35,905 nt of DNA from an uncultured Lachnospiraceae bacterium. Its GTDB lineage: Bacteria > Bacillota > Clostridia > Lachnospirales > Lachnospiraceae. The translations under genes were made by a program, and so were the position numbers. This document shows positions 7,087 to 35,848 of this stretch, piece by piece. Each line of letters opens with the position of its first letter. The stretch's first letter is position 1. The notes beneath the pieces are model-generated. The model was not told the origin of the DNA. It did not search any database and saw nothing but the letters and a program-made list of their open reading frames with translations. Location: positions 1 through 35,905 of the forward strand of contig CACZTL010000087.1 in NCBI GenBank assembly GCA_902784165.1, given 5' to 3'.

Positions 7087-7157
7087 CAGGGGTGGAGAGA
7101 ATCGAACTCCCGCCAAAAGTTTTGGAGACTCCTATGATACCATTTCACCACACCCCT
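7087..7157 (-). tRNA. tRNA-Trp (CCA anticodon)
   Basis: The minus strand folds into a full cloverleaf. The acceptor AGGGGTG pairs with CACCCCT, the D stem is GTGA/TCAT, the anticodon stem is GGAGT/ACTTT with loop CTCCAAA, and the T arm is GGGAG-TTCGATT-CTCTC. The anticodon CCA reads UGG (tryptophan), and the discriminator base is G, as usual for bacterial tRNA-Trp. The 3' CCA tail is not encoded. Confidence 0.95.
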
Positions 7158-25180: not shown

Positions 25181-26200
25181 TTATTTTTTTATGCGACTTA
25201 CAATTAAATTAATGATTTTAAATGTAGAAAAATTTGTTTTTCTCAAAAATTTTATCATGTAACCCCATTTCTCAGAAGCAACGACAGGAACATGATTATA
25301 TATCTCTTTACTAGCTTTTTTCAGCCTCTCGTCAAATAATCTGACCTTATCATACGAATTCATATTAGAAGGCATTGACGTCAGGATAACATATTTATTT
25401 TTAGCGCTGTCAGCAATCGTATTTTTTATATATTCTTTTGTCTTAGGGTAAATAATGTCTTTTTTTATCTTTTCATAATAGACTGCCATATTTTCAGAAA
25501 CTTTTGTAGCCTGATCGATATTTTTAAACCAACTTGAGCGTTGTACGCTCTGCCCTTCTCTTTCTGTACGATAAATGTAAACTCCCAAATTATACGCCGT
25601 TACTGAACGAATATAGGGAAGGGGCTTTATGTTATATTCAAAATCTGTATAAAAACAATTCTCCGTTATATGTAATCCTATATTTTTTAACACTTCAGTT
25701 CTATAGGTTATCTGATGCATAGCTAATTTTTTGCTGAACTCATAGTTTCTGATATCTTTGGTATAGGCATTTTTAAATGCTTTTTTATCCGATACAACTT
25801 CAATACTGCCATCTAAATCGTTAAATCTGAAATACTTCGTTAAGACCAAATCTGCTGTCTCTTTTTTTAATCTGTTAATAAAAGATTTCAAACTTTTTGT
25901 GTCAACCCAATCATCACCGTCAACAAGCTTAAAATATTTTCCCCTTGAAACGTATAGACTTTTGTTTATTGTAGATCCATAACCTCCGTTATCTTTATTG
26001 ATAACAATAAAAGTGTCAGGATATTTTTCTGCATATTCTTTGGCAATATTTGCAGTCTTGTCTATTGAACCATCATTTATTATAATGACCTCAAAAAGAT
26101 TCATTATCTCTTTATCACAAATAAAACTGTCGAGTGTTTGAGAAATATACTTCTCAACATTATAAGCTGCAACAGAAAATGTAATTACTTTATCTTTCAT
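25181..26200 (-). CDS. Family 2 glycosyltransferase
   Basis: A 339-residue GT-A fold enzyme, the last gene of the glycan operon. The donor site is seen as FSVAAYNVEKYISQTLDS at the N-terminus, VIIINDGSIDKT, NGGYGSTINKSL and VDGDDW, the DxD-like metal site around residue 100. The C-terminal half is not recognisable in detail. Three starts are possible (TTG 26206, ATG 26203, ATG 26200). The last has GAGG seven bases upstream and is preferred. Base composition is far more AT-rich than argG or glyA. The sugar transferred cannot be deduced. No membrane helices were noticed, so it probably acts at the inner membrane face. Confidence 0.88.
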   Translation of the reverse strand: MKDKVITFSVAAYNVEKYISQTLDSFICDKEIMNLFEVIIINDGSIDKTANIAKEYAEKYPDTFIVINKDNGGYGSTINKSLYVSRGKYFKLVDGDDWVDTKSLKSFINRLKKETADLVLTKYFRFNDLDGSIEVVSDKKAFKNAYTKDIRNYEFSKKLAMHQITYRTEVLKNIGLHITENCFYTDFEYNIKPLPYIRSVTAYNLGVYIYRTEREGQSVQRSSWFKNIDQATKVSENMAVYYEKIKKDIIYPKTKEYIKNTIADSAKNKYVILTSMPSNMNSYDKVRLFDERLKKASKEIYNHVPVVASEKWGYMIKFLRKTNFSTFKIINLIVSRIKK

Positions 26201-26254
26201 CATCAATCCTCACGTTTATCATGATGCTAACCTAGCATATTCAAAAATAAAAAA

Positions 26255-27256
26255 CTATATTTCGAAACTTGATCTTTTAGGAAATAATCTTTCAAAGAAT
26301 CTTATTGTCTTCTTTTTTTCAGTATTAAAATCATATCCTTCCCCATCATCATTGAGGCATACAAGTTTAGGCCTTCCACACTTTATAGCATCATATATCT
26401 CACCTGAATCACGACCATATTCATAATATCGTCCGAAATTTATATCCCTGGGATAAAAATAACCTGCTGCCATATCCCAATAACTAAACAACCAATGATT
26501 AATATTTGTGTAATTATTACGAAACCTTGATCTTGATGTTGCATCCATTGCTTCCTTTTCCAATTGCCACATCTTTCTTATGACACTCTTTCGAACTGAA
26601 TTTGGTAAGTGTTCATCAGTAAAACCGGAAAAATGCTTCCAAGGCAGCATAAATATATTATTGATCATCTGTTTACCATATTTTACATTTATCCATTTGG
26701 AAATATTTTTGATCATGCTCTGTCGTTTATCAAAATATTTATTGATTATAGAAATATTATTTTGAATCAGATGAGAAAAATTGTCCTTTAGCGAATAACC
26801 ATATGGTTGAAAAGGTCTCATTACAGCACTTGTACATATTCTTTTATTAATAAAAAAATCTGTAGGCTTTATTTTATTGAGTATAAACATGTCGTCATCA
26901 AAAAGAACGAATTGTTCTGATAACGCTTTAATCCTGTGAAGGTTTACTTGTATGGCATTTGAATTAAAAGTAGGTAAATATTTTTCCGGGATAAAATCAG
27001 AATGGGACAGGCACACCAGTTTTTTATGTTTAATATTCAACCATGCCGGTTGTTGACCACAGGTTATAAAAAAAACCTTACGCACCCATGGAGCATTTTT
27101 TTCTATACCCCTAAACAGATATTTTAAACACTCCCAATCTCTGAATCGAATATCTCTTTTGTCGTCAGCTTCGGAAATAGTTTCATATTTACTTTTTTCA
27201 TCCTGCCAGCTTTTGTCGGCCGGGTCCACCCATGTAATAACAAAATCTATAGGCAT
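26255..27256 (-). CDS. Stealth-family sugar-phosphate transferase
   Basis: A 333-residue protein of the Stealth family, which transfers hexose-1-phosphate units during capsule or phosphoglycan synthesis. Conserved region 1 is IDFVITWVDPADKSW (residues 3-17). Region 2 spans RDWECLKYLFRGIEKNAPWV through LPTFNSNAIQVNLHRI and FVLFDDDMFI (about 40-125). A later region has PWKHFSGFTDEHLP, and CLNDDGEG lies near the C-terminus. The set matches the bacterial capsule phosphotransferases. It lies third in the operon, so the glycan made is expected to contain phosphodiester links. The start has GAGGAG about 11 bases upstream. AT-rich codons match its neighbours. Confidence 0.88.
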   Translation of the reverse strand: MPIDFVITWVDPADKSWQDEKSKYETISEADDKRDIRFRDWECLKYLFRGIEKNAPWVRKVFFITCGQQPAWLNIKHKKLVCLSHSDFIPEKYLPTFNSNAIQVNLHRIKALSEQFVLFDDDMFILNKIKPTDFFINKRICTSAVMRPFQPYGYSLKDNFSHLIQNNISIINKYFDKRQSMIKNISKWINVKYGKQMINNIFMLPWKHFSGFTDEHLPNSVRKSVIRKMWQLEKEAMDATSRSRFRNNYTNINHWLFSYWDMAAGYFYPRDINFGRYYEYGRDSGEIYDAIKCGRPKLVCLNDDGEGYDFNTEKKKTIRFFERLFPKRSSFEI

Positions 27257-27292
27257 AAGCCTTTTTCTCCTCTTTATTTTTAGATATCTAAA

Positions 27293-28321
27293 TCATAGAT
27301 TACTAAGTTTCCTTTTTATGTATTTTTCAAATATCCAAAGATGAACCATGTGATATTTAATAATGATAAATTTTAATGCATCTTTAAAATTATCTAGGTT
27401 TTTTAATTCTATAGAATTCCAGATAGGCATAATATTTTTTGAATTCAAAAAATTATATAATGAATTAATCCTTTTTGATGACTCGGTCATATCGTTTCCT
27501 CTGAATACAAACAACCCCAGAGAATCATTCACTTTGTCAAAAAAGAACTTTTTTTCTGTTTTAGGTTTTATATTATAATCTTTTTTAAATTCATTATATC
27601 TTTTAAACAATCCTTTTAATTCTTTGTAAATCTGAGGGCGACACGACATAACAGCCGATCCTTCTCGTACTATGCGATGATACAAAACTTTCTTTTTAAA
27701 AAACATGGAATCTATGTATTGTGCATATTTGAGATTAAATAAAACATCCTCTCCTATCGGCATATTTTCATCAAAAAAAATATCATTCTTTTTTATTATA
27801 TCTGCCCTGTAGAGCTTACATACCGGTGCCATTGCCGGTCTCTTTTTTCCATAATTGGCCAGGCTCTTTTCCGTCAACTCCTTTTTAGCAGCTATGCCTT
27901 TAAGAAAAACGTCTTTCGTCCATTCCGATTCGTATATATCAATTGTTCTTCCTGACTCATCAATATTTTTAAATGCACACATCGTGACATCTGCACAATA
28001 TTTTTTTTGCAAATCCGTCAATATTTTTATATAACCTTGCAGAAGTATATCATCAGAATCAACAAAGGTTATCAATTCACCTTTACTTTCATTAATCCCC
28101 CTATTCCTTGCTGCGGATACACCTTTATTACTTTGCTCAAAATATCTGATCCTACTATCAGCGAAACTTTTACATATATCGCCACTATCATCTGTGGAGC
28201 CATCATTGATAAGTAATAATTCAAACTCCTCATAATTTTGAGAAAGAATACTATCTATGCAACTTCTCAAATATTTTTCACTATTATATATAGGAACTAT
28301 AACACTGACTTTCTGCTTCAT
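27293..28321 (-). CDS. Family 2 glycosyltransferase
   Basis: A 342-residue GT2 enzyme with a typical N-terminus: KVSVIVPIYNSEKYLRSCID, LLINDGSTDDSG, NKGVSAARNRGI and FVDSDD, the metal-binding site near residue 90. The C-terminal region is AT-rich in codon use (many Lys, Asn, Ile, Phe). Such enzymes add one sugar to a lipid-linked acceptor in capsule or exopolysaccharide synthesis. The second ATG (28321) is preferred over 28327, since AAGGA lies about eight bases upstream. It follows the GT4 gene after 14 bases and precedes the Stealth gene by 36, so it is the second gene of the operon. Confidence 0.9.
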   Translation of the reverse strand: MKQKVSVIVPIYNSEKYLRSCIDSILSQNYEEFELLLINDGSTDDSGDICKSFADSRIRYFEQSNKGVSAARNRGINESKGELITFVDSDDILLQGYIKILTDLQKKYCADVTMCAFKNIDESGRTIDIYESEWTKDVFLKGIAAKKELTEKSLANYGKKRPAMAPVCKLYRADIIKKNDIFFDENMPIGEDVLFNLKYAQYIDSMFFKKKVLYHRIVREGSAVMSCRPQIYKELKGLFKRYNEFKKDYNIKPKTEKKFFFDKVNDSLGLFVFRGNDMTESSKRINSLYNFLNSKNIMPIWNSIELKNLDNFKDALKFIIIKYHMVHLWIFEKYIKRKLSNL

Positions 28322-28335
28322 AAACATTTTCCTTG

Positions 28336-29481
28336 CTATTTATTTTTATAAAAATCAATAAGCTGACCTACTGTTGCCTCTATACTGTAACCTTTTTTCT
28401 CTATCAAACTCGACATATTCTTTCTTATATATTTTTTACTATACATAAGTTTTTCAGACCAACGATAAATACTGCCATCATCTATAGGAAGAAAAACGGC
28501 ATTCTCAGATAACGCTGCTTCCTTTGTTATAGTATCAGAAAGCAATACCGGCAATCCCGCCGCCTGCGCTTCGATTCCGACGATTGGTAAACCTTCAAAA
28601 AAAGAAGGCAATATAAACACATCCATCCCTTGTAAAAGCTCATTTACCCTGTCGCTGAGACCATAAAAAATCACATTGTCGTCAAGACCTTTATCTTTTA
28701 CAATTTTTTTTATATTAGCAATAAGTTCCCCTGCCCCAACAAGTAATAATTTTGTGTCTCCTTCACAACCATGTTTTTTCCATGATTCGCAAAAATCAGA
28801 AAAAATCTTAATAACATATTCGTGATTTTTCTGATACATAAATCTTCCGACATGTCCTATAAGATAATCAGAATTATCAATGTCTAATTCCGCCCTGACT
28901 TTTTTTCTTATATTTTCGTTAAAAGCAAACTTTTCTATATCTATACCGTTTTTTATCAATGTAACACCGGTCTTTGGTATTCCGGGAAACATCCACTTTG
29001 ATGCAGAATATGAGCATGCAACGTACTTACCATTTATTATCTTTAGTAACTTACGACATATCAAATGAAGTTTTTCTTTGATCTCTCTATTATTTCCGTC
29101 CGTTCCCGTAGCATGAGAGTGCAATAATATTTTAGGTACACCACACCTTTTAGCTGCTAATCCGGATACAAGTAGTTTATTAGCTACATCTGAATGAATA
29201 TGCACCACATCATACCTTTCCTGTTTCAAAAGGCTGCACATATGCTTATATATATAAAACTGCTTTTTAATCTTACTCCCCTTGTATCCAACAAAAAATA
29301 TCCTTGTCCCAAGACTTCTTAAGTACTTTATATTTTCTTTTTTCTCAAATGGCTCCAGTGCAGCTATATCTATCTGCATATCATCAGGCTTTTTCTCTAT
29401 AACACTCTTTATCAGTGAAAAAACTCCCCCATTACCCTGATCATCAACATTTACCTCAAGTACTCTTATCTTTCTTGCCAT
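28336..29481 (-). CDS. Family 4 glycosyltransferase
   Basis: A 381-residue GT-B enzyme, the first gene of the glycan operon. The N-terminal acceptor domain has LEVNVDDQGNGGVFSLIKSV and YDVVHIHSDVANKLL. The donor domain has IGHVGRFMYQKNHEYVIKIF, LLLVGAGEL and FYGLSDRVNELLQGMDVF. LPSFFEGLPIVGIEAQAAGL carries the E-x7-E motif of retaining GT4 enzymes. It resembles EpsF/capsule transferases that extend an undecaprenyl-linked oligosaccharide. No initiating phosphosugar transferase, flippase or polymerase is in the island, so those must be encoded elsewhere. Confidence 0.92.
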   Translation of the reverse strand: MARKIRVLEVNVDDQGNGGVFSLIKSVIEKKPDDMQIDIAALEPFEKKENIKYLRSLGTRIFFVGYKGSKIKKQFYIYKHMCSLLKQERYDVVHIHSDVANKLLVSGLAAKRCGVPKILLHSHATGTDGNNREIKEKLHLICRKLLKIINGKYVACSYSASKWMFPGIPKTGVTLIKNGIDIEKFAFNENIRKKVRAELDIDNSDYLIGHVGRFMYQKNHEYVIKIFSDFCESWKKHGCEGDTKLLLVGAGELIANIKKIVKDKGLDDNVIFYGLSDRVNELLQGMDVFILPSFFEGLPIVGIEAQAAGLPVLLSDTITKEAALSENAVFLPIDDGSIYRWSEKLMYSKKYIRKNMSSLIEKKGYSIEATVGQLIDFYKNK

Positions 29482-32064: not shown

Positions 32065-33861
32065 TCAGCCCTCCTTTGTATTATTTATTTCAACCCCCAG
32101 CTCCTCAAGCTGCTTCTTATCTACCGTATCCGGAGCTCCCGTAAGCATACACGAAGCATCTTTTACCTTAGGAAACGCGATAACATCCCTGATACTATCC
32201 GCACCGGTCATAAGCATGATCAGCCTGTCAAGACCTATAGCAAGTCCGGCATGAGGAGGCACACCATACTTAAATGCCTCAAGTAAAAATCCGAACTTTT
32301 CATTGGCTGTCTCTTCATCAATACCGAGAGCCTTAAACATCCTCTCCTGTATATCCGAGCGATAGATACGCTCGCTTCCGCCGCCGAGCTCTATTCCGTT
32401 TAGAACTATATCATAAGCCTTAGCTCTTACATTTCCAAGGTCAGATTCCAGCTTATCCAAATCCTGCTCAAGAGGCATCGTAAACGGGTGGTGCATAGCG
32501 ACAAATCGCTCCTCTTCATCAGACCACTCAAACTGGGGAAATTCCGTAACCCAAAGGAAGGCGTACTCATCAGACTTCCTTAATCCTTTTCTTTCAGCAA
32601 GCTCAAGTCTGAGAGCGCCGAGCACATTAAATACTATCTTATCTCTGTCAGCCGCAAAAAGCAGAAGATCACCCGGCTCACCGTCCAGCGCCGAAACCAG
32701 GGTGCCCATTTCCTCTTCACTCATGAATTTTGCAAATGAAGATTTCTGCGTTCCGTCCGGCTGTATCTGTATATACGCAAGCCCCTTTGCTTCATAACCT
32801 TTTGCAAACTCGACAAGTGCGTCGATCTGCTTACGTGACATATCGCCGAAGCCCTTTGCATTTATCGCTCTGACGGAGCCGCCATTTTCTATGGCTCCCG
32901 TAAATACGCCAAAACCGCTGTTCTTAACAATATCCGAAACATTTTTTAATTCCATTCCGAAACGCACATCCGGCTTATCCGAGCCAAAACGCTCCATAGC
33001 CTCATACCAGGTCATACGTTTCAGAGGGAGCGTAACACTTACATCGAGAATCTCTTTAAATAGATAAGCAACAAGCCTTTCCGTTACATCCATTACGTCC
33101 TCTGCCGTTACAAACGACATCTCAAGATCAAGCTGTGTAAACTCAGGCTGCCTGTCAGCCCTTAAATCCTCATCTCTAAAGCACCTTGCGATCTGCATAT
33201 ATCTGTCAAAGCCGGATGCCATAAGCATCTGTTTAAACAACTGGGGAGACTGAGGCAGCGCGTAGAAATGCCCGGGATGCACACGGCTGGGCACAAGATA
33301 ATCCCTTGCGCCCTCAGGAGTGCTTTTGGTAAGCATAGGTGTCTCTATTTCGATAAAGCCTTCATCCTCACAAAGGAAACGGCGCATAAGTCCGGTCACG
33401 CGGCTGCGAATCATAATATTTTCCTGAATATCGGCACGTCTCAGATCAAGTGTCCTGTATTTTAAACGAACCTCTTCCTTTGTATCTATCCCCGGCTCAA
33501 TGGGAAACGGCGGGGTATCAGCTTCGGAAAGTATGCGAAGATCCTCTGCAAGAATCTCTATCTCTCCCGTTTTTAAGCTCTCATTTATATCACCGCTTCT
33601 TTTAGCTACCTCGCCGGTAACTGCTATAACGAACTCATTTCTTAAAGAATATGCCTTTTCAAATATATCTTTATCCAGCTTTGTCTCATCAAAAAGCACC
33701 TGGACAAGACCGCTTCTGTCACGCATATCAACAAATATGATGGTCCCTAAGTTCCTTCTTTTCTGAACCCAGCCCATAAGCGTAACCTTTTTACCTATAT
33801 CCTCTACAGAAACTTCAGCACACCTACAGCTGCGGCTGAGTCCTTCCATGCTCTCGGACAT
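32065..33861 (-). CDS. aspS: Aspartyl-tRNA synthetase
   Basis: This class II synthetase charges tRNA-Asp. The 598-residue size is the bacterial type, with an N-terminal OB anticodon domain (VTLMGWVQKRRNLGTIIFVD), a catalytic core and a GAD insertion. Motif 2 is IARCFRDEDLRADRQPEFTQ. Motif 3 is GLAIGLDRLIMLM, followed by IRDVIAFPK. The start ATG has AGGAGGAG about six bases upstream. Neighbours are femAB downstream (coupled) and, upstream, the 600-base region with a promoter and DnaA boxes. hisS, a common partner in Firmicutes, is absent. Whether it also charges tRNA-Asn is not decidable from the window. Confidence 0.97.
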   Translation of the reverse strand: MSESMEGLSRSCRCAEVSVEDIGKKVTLMGWVQKRRNLGTIIFVDMRDRSGLVQVLFDETKLDKDIFEKAYSLRNEFVIAVTGEVAKRSGDINESLKTGEIEILAEDLRILSEADTPPFPIEPGIDTKEEVRLKYRTLDLRRADIQENIMIRSRVTGLMRRFLCEDEGFIEIETPMLTKSTPEGARDYLVPSRVHPGHFYALPQSPQLFKQMLMASGFDRYMQIARCFRDEDLRADRQPEFTQLDLEMSFVTAEDVMDVTERLVAYLFKEILDVSVTLPLKRMTWYEAMERFGSDKPDVRFGMELKNVSDIVKNSGFGVFTGAIENGGSVRAINAKGFGDMSRKQIDALVEFAKGYEAKGLAYIQIQPDGTQKSSFAKFMSEEEMGTLVSALDGEPGDLLLFAADRDKIVFNVLGALRLELAERKGLRKSDEYAFLWVTEFPQFEWSDEEERFVAMHHPFTMPLEQDLDKLESDLGNVRAKAYDIVLNGIELGGGSERIYRSDIQERMFKALGIDEETANEKFGFLLEAFKYGVPPHAGLAIGLDRLIMLMTGADSIRDVIAFPKVKDASCMLTGAPDTVDKKQLEELGVEINNTKEG

Positions 33862-33899
33862 GTCTGCTCCTCCTGAAATCTGCCATACACTTAATTTCA

Positions 33900-33925
33900 G
33901 TTGTGTACCGTGGACGGTTCACAAC
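33900..33925. repeat. Possible degenerate REP-like palindrome in the aspS leader
   Basis: GTTGTG and CACAAC pair around TACCGTGGACGGTT. GGACGGTTC matches the core of the short units, but the outer arms differ from GTGTGTCA. It may be a decayed copy in the aspS leader. Confidence 0.45.
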
Positions 33926-33942
33926 GCATTACATAGTTTCAT

Positions 33943-33971
33943 ATTGTATAATAAATAAGAAAAACTTTCAA
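33943..33971 (-). promoter_or_regulatory. aspS-femAB promoter
   Basis: On the minus strand, TTGAAA (33966-33971) is 17 bases from TACAAT (33943-33948), about 80 bases upstream of the aspS start. No T-box motif (GGGTGG...GCG) is present in the leader. Confidence 0.7.
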
Positions 33972-34120
33972 TGTATTTATCCGTAATATCATTTTCACAT
34001 ATCACGGTATACCCATATTATGTCAATAGAAATAACTGTTTTTTTTATGCATTTTTCACTTTTTGGTCAGCTTTACAAAAATACTGTTCGTAAGTTATTG
34101 TGCATTTCCCCATTTTAAAT

Positions 34121-34211
34121 TGTGGATAATGTGGATAAGTTAGGGGATAACGCAAAATTGAAGCAAGTTATCCCCATTTTTAGTGGATAACTTCAAAATT
34201 TTGGTGGATAA
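34121..34211. promoter_or_regulatory. DnaA-box cluster
   Basis: Within 91 bases there are five to six sites like the DnaA box TTATCCACA. Two perfect copies (TGTGGATAA on plus) abut at 34121-34129 and 34130-34138. One-mismatch copies lie at 34168-34176 (TTATCCCCA), 34182-34190 and 34203-34211. A weaker one lies at 34142-34150. The surrounding 33940-34440 is very AT-rich. The cluster lies about 150 bases upstream of the aspS promoter and about 260 bases past the S1-gene terminator. dnaA, dnaN and rpmH are not in the window. It could be a DnaA-titration or regulatory site, or part of an origin. Confidence 0.75.
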
Positions 34212-34467
34212 AATGGTTTTTTAAAATACACCAAAATATCGTTTTGTGCATATTGCATAAAAGCTTGATTTTTTCGTAAAATATAAAAAAATCATAAAAA
34301 AATGTTTCTCCCCCCTTTAATACAGATATATTCAAGTGTTTTACCGCCATAATCACTTTCTCGTTTTTTCATTTCTGTATCCGAAAAAAAAATGAAAAGC
34401 TTTCACTTAACTTTCTAAATATTTACGAGTTAAAGTTGTTATTATTTATAGCCGACATTCTTTTCGC
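34212..34467. other. AT-rich gene-free region beside the DnaA boxes
   Basis: No gene, tRNA or clear promoter was seen. It contains homopolymeric A and T runs and an inverted repeat GATTTTTT/AAAAAATC (34267-34293). Such sequence could serve as an unwinding element if the DnaA cluster is an origin. That is an inference. Confidence 0.5.
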
Positions 34468-34498
34468 AAAAAAATGAGGCCGCCGAAGCGAACCTCAT
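34468..34498 (-). terminator. Terminator after the S1-domain gene
   Basis: On the minus strand, ATGAGG pairs with CCTCAT, and an inner CGC-TTCG-GCG tetraloop sits between, followed by seven U residues. It ends the ispH-S1 transcript about 30 bases past the stop. Confidence 0.93.
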
Positions 34499-34525
34499 CT
34501 TTAACCTTATAAATACAAACAATCA

Positions 34526-35848
34526 TCAATCTGGAATGCCGCTGTTTTCCGCATTCTGAAGAGGATTCTTATGATCGTCGGATTCCTCAGCTGCCGGAGC
34601 TGCCTCTTCTGCTGCAGGTGCTTCTTCAGCTGCCGGAGTTGCCTCTTCTGCTGCAGGTGCTGCCTCCTCTGTCGCAGGTGCTTCTTCAGCTGCAGGCGCT
34701 GCCTCTTCTGCTGCAGGCGCTTCCTCAGCAGCAGGTGCGTCATCTGTACTGTATACAGTATCAGACTCTGTCTCCTCTGCCTTCTTAGGCTCTAAGTTAG
34801 CCTGCTTTATGCTCAGGCTTATCTTCTTCTCATCGGGGTTAAAGTCAACAACCTTAGCCTCAATCTCCTGACCGATAGAAAGTACGTCTGAAGGCTTACC
34901 TACATGCTCTCTTGATATCTGGGATACATGAAGAAGCGCATCGATTCCGTCCTCAAGCTGTATAAATGCACCGAAATCGGTCATCCTTGCAACCGTACCC
35001 TTTACTATGCTGCCTGTTGTATACTTTGAAGAAGCTGCATTCCAGGGATTCGTCTCAGGGAACTTAACACTGAGAGCTATCTTCTCACCGTTTATCTCCT
35101 TGATGAGGCACTCAACCTCTTCACCAACCTTGAAAAGCTTCTTAGGGCTCTCTGTTCTTCCCCAAGACATCTCTGAAATATGAAGAAGTCCGTCAACTCC
35201 GCCAAGGTCGATAAATGCACCGAAATCAGTAACATTCTTAACAGTTCCCTTAATCCTGTCGCCCGTGCTGATCTTAGCAAGTAACTCTTCCTTAAGCGCC
35301 TTCTTCTTCTCGGCAACAATTTCTTTACAGTTACCTATGATCCTTCTTTCTCTGGGATTATACTCCTGGATGATAAACTCAACATCCTGATCCGCATAAA
35401 CGGAAAGATCTCTGACAAATGAATCGGAAACAAGACTTGCCGGTATAAATACCCTTGTCTCGTCTACTGTTACATTCAGACCGCCCTTAACTACCTGAGT
35501 AACCTTTGCAGTAAGCACCTCTTTATTCTCAAACGCCTGCTCAAGCTTAGCATTACCGGCCTCCTGACGCATCCTGCGATAAGAAAGCTGTACCTGACCG
35601 TCGCCGTCATTAACCTTGATGACTCTGGCTCTGATCTCATCTCCCGGTGAAACAAGAGACTTAAGATCAGCATCAGCCTCGGATGTATACTCACTCTTGG
35701 CTATGATACCGTCTGACTTATAATTGATGTTAAGAACGATCTCGTTATCCTTAACATCAATAACCGTTCCCTTTACTGTTTCTCCTACATGAACAGACTT
35801 AATGCTGTCCTCATTCTGTAATAACTCCTCAAAACTCTCTTCTGACAC
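34526..35848 (-). CDS. rpsA: Ribosomal protein S1-like (four S1 domains)
   Basis: A 440-residue RNA-binding protein. Four S1 (OB) domains occupy about residues 17-87, 100-168, 190-258 and 275-345. Domains 3 and 4 have the canonical VTDFGAFIDLGGVDGLLHIS and MTDFGAFIQLEDGIDALLHV blocks. A low-complexity tail (about 355-430) is built of PAAEEA-type units. It probably helps ribosomes bind mRNA, although Firmicute S1 homologues are shorter and their role is less certain than in E. coli. The start is a GTG at 35846-35848, with AGGAGG nine bases upstream. The ispH frame runs 20 bases into the gene, so translation may be coupled. Confidence 0.93.
   Translation of the reverse strand: MSEESFEELLQNEDSIKSVHVGETVKGTVIDVKDNEIVLNINYKSDGIIAKSEYTSEADADLKSLVSPGDEIRARVIKVNDGDGQVQLSYRRMRQEAGNAKLEQAFENKEVLTAKVTQVVKGGLNVTVDETRVFIPASLVSDSFVRDLSVYADQDVEFIIQEYNPRERRIIGNCKEIVAEKKKALKEELLAKISTGDRIKGTVKNVTDFGAFIDLGGVDGLLHISEMSWGRTESPKKLFKVGEEVECLIKEINGEKIALSVKFPETNPWNAASSKYTTGSIVKGTVARMTDFGAFIQLEDGIDALLHVSQISREHVGKPSDVLSIGQEIEAKVVDFNPDEKKISLSIKQANLEPKKAEETESDTVYSTDDAPAAEEAPAAEEAAPAAEEAPATEEAAPAAEEATPAAEEAPAAEEAAPAAEESDDHKNPLQNAENSGIPD
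34590..34745 (-). repeat. Minisatellite coding the S1 Ala-Glu tail
   Basis: Imperfect in-frame units of about 15-36 bases (minus strand, coding APAAEEA or APATEEA) are repeated roughly eight times. They differ mainly by third-base changes. Such an array is prone to length change, so the tail may vary between strains. Confidence 0.8.

Follow-up and report, generated by a model that had tools for sequence, protein, structure and literature searches.

Clusters of DnaA boxes outside the replication origin, oriC, are a known kind of locus. In Bacillus subtilis they are described at ywcI-vpr, gcp-ydiF, trmE-jag, ywlB-ywlC, yqeG-sda and yydA (PMC4447404). A B. subtilis strain deprived of six DnaA-box clusters initiates replication early, and this is partly relieved when one cluster is put back; the review that relates this result doubts that the clusters play a significant role (PMC5295017). 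According to another text, ten-fold overproduction of DnaA causes no over-initiation in B. subtilis, which is said there to lack datA/DARS loci (PMC13220808). In E. coli, datA, DARS1 and DARS2 are non-coding loci outside oriC which combine DnaA boxes with sites for other proteins (IHF/Fis) and act on DnaA. Finally, box arrays are also found upstream of genes in DnaA-regulated promoters, B. subtilis sda being an example.

The cluster that we describe here belongs to this known kind, and its architecture and location are new. It lies in the draft genome of an uncultured Lachnospiraceae bacterium (hereafter G000; 1.60 Mb, 101 contigs, 89% complete), within a stretch of 35,905 nucleotides that we call the window. 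Its neighbours, both on the minus strand, are rpsA, encoding ribosomal protein S1, on the upstream side (34526-35848; NF005208) and aspS on the downstream side (32065-33861; NF001750, TIGR00459); a FemX-like protein was also identified in the window, with a score below the cut-off of that model. A preliminary description of this DNA had pointed to two perfect DnaA boxes abutting head to tail and to three one-mismatch boxes, all within 91 bases of a gene-free stretch of about 600 bases. Our scan bears this out, the gap between the two genes measuring 664 bp (33862-34525). The perfect boxes, both TTATCCACA on the minus strand, are box F (34121-34129) and box E (34130-34138), which abut; the boxes with one mismatch are box C (TTATCCCCA, 34168-34176), which is in the opposite orientation on the plus strand, box B (TTATCCACT, 34182-34190, minus strand) and box A (TTATCCACC, 34203-34211, minus strand). 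A sixth box, D (TTATCCCCT, 34142-34150, minus strand), has two mismatches and completes the site (34121-34211); it lies 12 bp before box E, in register with the other five, and its position is the same across the genus.

Markov shuffling never produced five boxes in 91 bp: the maximum was 2 in 300 shuffles of the window and 3, reached three times, in 20,000 shuffles of the intergenic stretch. As a total, the 13 boxes of the window are ordinary (9.4 expected, with 13 reached in 14 of 100 shuffles); it is only the clustering, and not the box number, that exceeds chance there. The contigs of the genome contain 20 perfect boxes (7 for the reversed-pattern control), and among the 20 loci around them more than one box in 150 bp was found only at oriC (three boxes) and at the present site (five); clusters of this density are rare among the perfect-box loci of the genome. 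The same gene order in a second MAG, G003, with which L059 (RUG12930) is apparently identical as a record, makes an assembly artefact at the rpsA-aspS junction unlikely. An RNA gene or T-box at the site was also considered and rejected, with no Rfam match at gathering score nearby; at that score the window contains one tRNA (7087-7157), and a scan of the loci of 20 relatives gave one tRNA only. As for the rest of the window, the S1 gene encodes, in its 3' part (34540-34790), a repetitive tail rich in Ala and Glu, and the region 25181-29481, where the GC content falls to 0.31-0.32 versus about 0.45, is a block of glycosyltransferase-like genes that also holds one unassigned gene.

Judging from the alignment of its copies, the cluster is part of a larger module. 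This module, which has changed place, is 240 bases long (34021-34260, minus strand) and runs from an inverted repeat at its 5' end, through the six boxes and a GAAC site, to TTGAC at its 3' end. The inverted repeat (TTATGCAATATGCACAA, 34244-34260, minus strand) differs by one mismatch from the consensus TTGTGCAnnnTGCACAA and is the presumed site of a second factor; it is the sole match in the window at two mismatches, for 0.12 expected, i.e. about one per ten windows. The GAAC site (CGAACAGTATTTTTG, 34076-34090, minus strand) is a copy of the pattern GAACnnnn[GT]TTT, which taken alone is not significant in the window (2 matches for 1.36 expected). The final TTGACA (34021-34026, minus strand) is either a possible -35 hexamer or the edge of the module.

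It is from their position that the inverted repeat and the GAAC site draw their weight. We compared 56 copies out of 100 sequences (49 at hpf, where G034 and L180 denote a single locus, 2 at aspS and 5 preselected for the tandem pair; a few copies come from other families of the order), numbering positions from the tandem pair E-F, taken as 0. In 44 of the copies the TTGTGCAnnnTGCACAA repeat, or one half of it, lies 5' of the pair (3.9% in shuffles), and its start falls mostly between -143 and -114. The GAAC site is present in 17 copies (1.7% in shuffles), at about +41 to +44 in 14 of these and at +31 in both aspS copies; it often reads GAACRNNYGTTTTG, a form which we take to resemble the LexA box of Firmicutes. 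TTGAC occurs in 43 copies (18.5% in shuffles), 42 times at +83 to +109, and beyond it nothing is clearly conserved. The helical phasing of the spacings (43 and 42 distances from the same set) is only suggestive: over all copies it is strong, none of 2000 jittered sets being as strong, and when each distinct distance is counted once, 360 and 335 of 2000 jittered sets are as strong.

The tandem pair does not by itself identify the module. It was detected in 250 of 299 genomes of the family (reversed control: 6 genomes), and most of the pair loci listed lie elsewhere: among 30 of them, one per genome, 17 are at murC-dnaD, 5 at hpf, 2 at oriC and 6 at other places. Those at murC-dnaD, which include L153, L172, L173, L179, L184 and L193, make up a second recurrent DnaA-box cluster, flanked by murC and by a gene whose product has a DnaB_2 (DnaD/DnaB-like) domain; DnaA may control helicase-loading genes there, or be titrated at them. 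Near oriC (11 loci) and murC-dnaD (17 loci), the inverted repeat gave matches at chance level only. The names rpmH, rnpA, dnaN, asnS and that of DnaI, the partner of DnaD, were read from position or sequence.

Of 11 congeners searched at the DNA level, G001, G002, G003, G008 and G010 contained a convincing match (E below 1e-4). In all of these except G003 the match sits upstream of hpf, the gene for the ribosome hibernation-promoting factor (PF02482, PF16321, TIGR00741), which is followed by secA in G008. The same layout, with altered boxes, precedes hpf in G007, and a weak form of the element was recognised in G004, G006 and G009; hpf was not found in G005 in this comparison. The association extends through the family: of the 67 Lachnospiraceae whose sequence could be used, 36 carry three or more boxes within 150 bp upstream of hpf and 8 carry one or two. 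In the other 23 no box was counted, which sets a limit to the rule. In other Lachnospirales families at least three boxes were counted in 5 of 19 genomes, and none of 1720 shuffles reached three. (This survey started from 115 genomes with hpf, of which 90 were fetched and 25 were not; the count leaves out G071, G014 and G032, whose start was not parsed, and G041, which is short, and uses 338 bp only for G076.)

G000 and G003 have no box within 650 bp upstream of hpf, and their element sits between rpsA and aspS. The best explanation, which we regard as fairly probable together with the rest of the reading given below, is that the element moved into the rpsA-aspS gap in the lineage of G000. The junction itself is best interpreted as a derived state that goes back to the ancestor of G000 and G003, because rpsA is followed by rnfC in G008, and the proteins encoded after rpsA in G001, G005 and G007 begin like that of G008, with no cluster there.

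The comparison of the two sister genomes bears on the fate of the module in its new place. Between G000 and G003, 195 of the 241 columns of the module interval are identical (81%), versus 118 of 269 (44%) and 81 of 262 (31%) in the flanks, the lower figure being that of the aspS-proximal DNA, the least conserved part of the gap. The best conserved bins (34050-34249) range from 0.69 to 0.98, and the outer edges are at about 0.5 to 0.6. The element has thus been kept without hpf between diverged flanks, and selection seems to act on the relocated copy.

Is DnaA the protein that recognises these boxes? All the variants that we have seen fall within or near the general DnaA-box consensus TTWTNCACA, as given in PMC7561715. 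In 7 of 10 congeners the element repeats the main box type of oriC: TTATCCACA is used at both places in G000, G003 and G008, and TTTTCCAC in G004, G006 and G009, which are close relatives with DnaA proteins 98-99% identical. The agreement appears most telling in G007, where TTATTCACA is found 11 times around dnaA and four times in the hpf element, these being the only four in 17 kb. The types disagree in the three other congeners: perfect boxes are few or absent at oriC in G002 and G001, whose elements have 3 and 2 of them, respectively, and G010 is mixed. We infer that DnaA binds the module. Upstream of dnaA in G002 (L219), we noticed no perfect box, only TTATACACA and TTATCAACA, the hpf element of this genome having three perfect ones. 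We also noticed that among the 11 congeners (L212-L222) DnaA varies far more than AspS, G000 sharing 90% of AspS and 53% of DnaA with G002, and 89% and 75% with G003.

The module resembles the B. subtilis clusters in being a dense intergenic array, away from dnaA, of boxes closer together than chance would have them, and in its proposed effect on free DnaA. It differs from them in its compound make-up, which adds an inverted repeat and a GAAC site to the boxes, and in occupying changing places; the table of the top 20 regions bound by DnaA in vitro in B. subtilis contains no region named after hpf, aspS or murC-dnaD, and no cluster in that table shares its place (PMC4447404). The likeness to datA, DARS1 and DARS2 lies in a non-coding locus outside oriC with DnaA boxes and a candidate site for another protein, which would likewise act on DnaA. 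The layout of the boxes is fixed in the module and its inverted repeat is conserved; the bacteria are unrelated, and the partner sites are those of IHF/Fis in E. coli and, putatively, an inverted repeat here. As in sda-type promoters, the array can lie upstream of a gene and be followed by a possible -35 hexamer, but the neighbour gene of the module is not constant and the module persists without hpf. Our literature search found no compound, relocatable module of fixed parts spread through one family and usually placed before hpf, nor any paper that deals with such clusters in the Lachnospiraceae, one of the major families of the gut.

We think that the module is probably a stand-alone DnaA-binding locus that tunes initiation, with a candidate second factor, usually located before hpf and here relocated; this is the reading that we hold with some, though not great, confidence. 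Its anatomy, its conservation, the change of neighbour, the lack of a skew switch at its homologue (see below) and the matched altered box type of G007 are established. Sequestration and the second factor are, like DnaA binding itself, matters of inference, and so are the steps that would follow binding. DnaA would bind cooperatively at the six ordered boxes, and at least one further factor would bind the inverted repeat. The module would then be a cis-acting sink or regulator, sequestering or tuning DnaA with the partner at the inverted repeat; it would hold DnaA away from oriC and release it according to the state of DnaA, and so limit or time initiation, a role also proposed for the clusters of B. 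subtilis. The regulatory cluster outside oriC that the preliminary description had proposed is well supported by the conservation of the boxes, both in G003 and as clusters upstream of hpf in many Lachnospiraceae, by the rarity of equal clusters and by the location of dnaA elsewhere; the two other roles that it had entertained, control of aspS and an origin, are disfavoured.

The most serious alternative is that the module is a DnaA-dependent promoter control region, with TTGAC at its 3' edge as the -35 hexamer, which would tie the expression of hpf to replication status and would here drive or repress aspS. DnaA is indeed a known transcription factor, the orientation of the element towards hpf is constant in the aligned copies, and the position of TTGAC is shared by 42 of the 56 copies, some of which have a plausible -10. 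We nevertheless consider this alternative unlikely, if worth keeping in mind. A locus acting on its own fits better, because the module was kept after its separation from hpf in G000 and G003, and because hpf is absent from the vicinity of copies L174, L175 and L178, which belong to other genera and have convergent genes after them. (Among such non-hpf copies, L178 and L189 have all the parts, L174 is without the repeat, L175 without the GAAC site and TTGAC, and L177 consists of the pair only.) The lack of clear conservation beyond TTGAC and the 31% identity of the aspS-proximal DNA between the sisters also speak against a promoter.

The promoter of aspS had been placed about 150 bases from the boxes, and a promoter-like sequence facing aspS, TTGAAA-17-TACAAT (33943-33971, minus strand; a consensus match only), does end 150 bp from the nearest one; promoter-like matches number 7 for 3.0 expected. 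Yet at least three boxes in 150 bp were found at only 3 of 110 aspS loci (some places being counted twice and some cut short upstream), all three from G000 and G003 and the only ones in which S1 adjoins aspS. The other loci of the 110 are without the cluster. Given this distribution, the divergence of the aspS-proximal DNA and the usual place before hpf, DnaA control of aspS-femAB is disfavoured, and the element is probably not a switch for its present neighbour.

It is rather improbable, in our opinion, that the boxes are bound by another protein, or that they are the neutral remnant of a rearrangement with a breakpoint beside the old hpf promoter. The 23 of 67 genomes without boxes at hpf and the three congeners whose element mismatches their own oriC box type could be read in this way. 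Against it stand the exact match to the DnaA-box consensus, the parallel use of TTATTCACA at oriC and in the element of G007, and the 81% identity of the relocated copy between species, versus 44% and 31% alongside.

There remains the origin next to aspS. The site is AT-rich, it has more boxes than the oriC of G000 (5 versus 3), and it is partly similar to it (53 bp, 79%). But dnaA (PF00308, PF08299) was located on a separate contig, C10, with three boxes just upstream and a switch of GC skew from -0.10 to +0.16. The homologous element of G008 lies 46.5 kb inside a contig of 127.7 kb (G008:C3) whose skew is positive in all 25 bins, and the skew of the window is negative to the left and to the right of the element, the part seen on one side being just 1.7 kb long. 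With dnaA on another contig and no skew switch at the G008 copy, we regard a replication origin, even a second one, as very improbable.

Tentatively, and with much less assurance than for the stand-alone locus itself, we suggest that the Lachnospiraceae may possess a DnaA-control locus specific to their family and able to relocate, which would be a Gram-positive counterpart of datA/DARS. A second protein bound at the TTGTGCAnnnTGCACAA repeat, joined in some species by a LexA-like repressor at the GAAC site, would act with a DnaA filament on the six ordered boxes to set initiation; the place before hpf would couple the start of replication to ribosome hibernation, and the locus would work wherever it lands. 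The finding touches on the question of how Gram-positive anaerobes limit initiation without the datA/DARS set of E. coli, and a compact module with definable parts, naturally relocated from its usual gene, makes this question directly testable.
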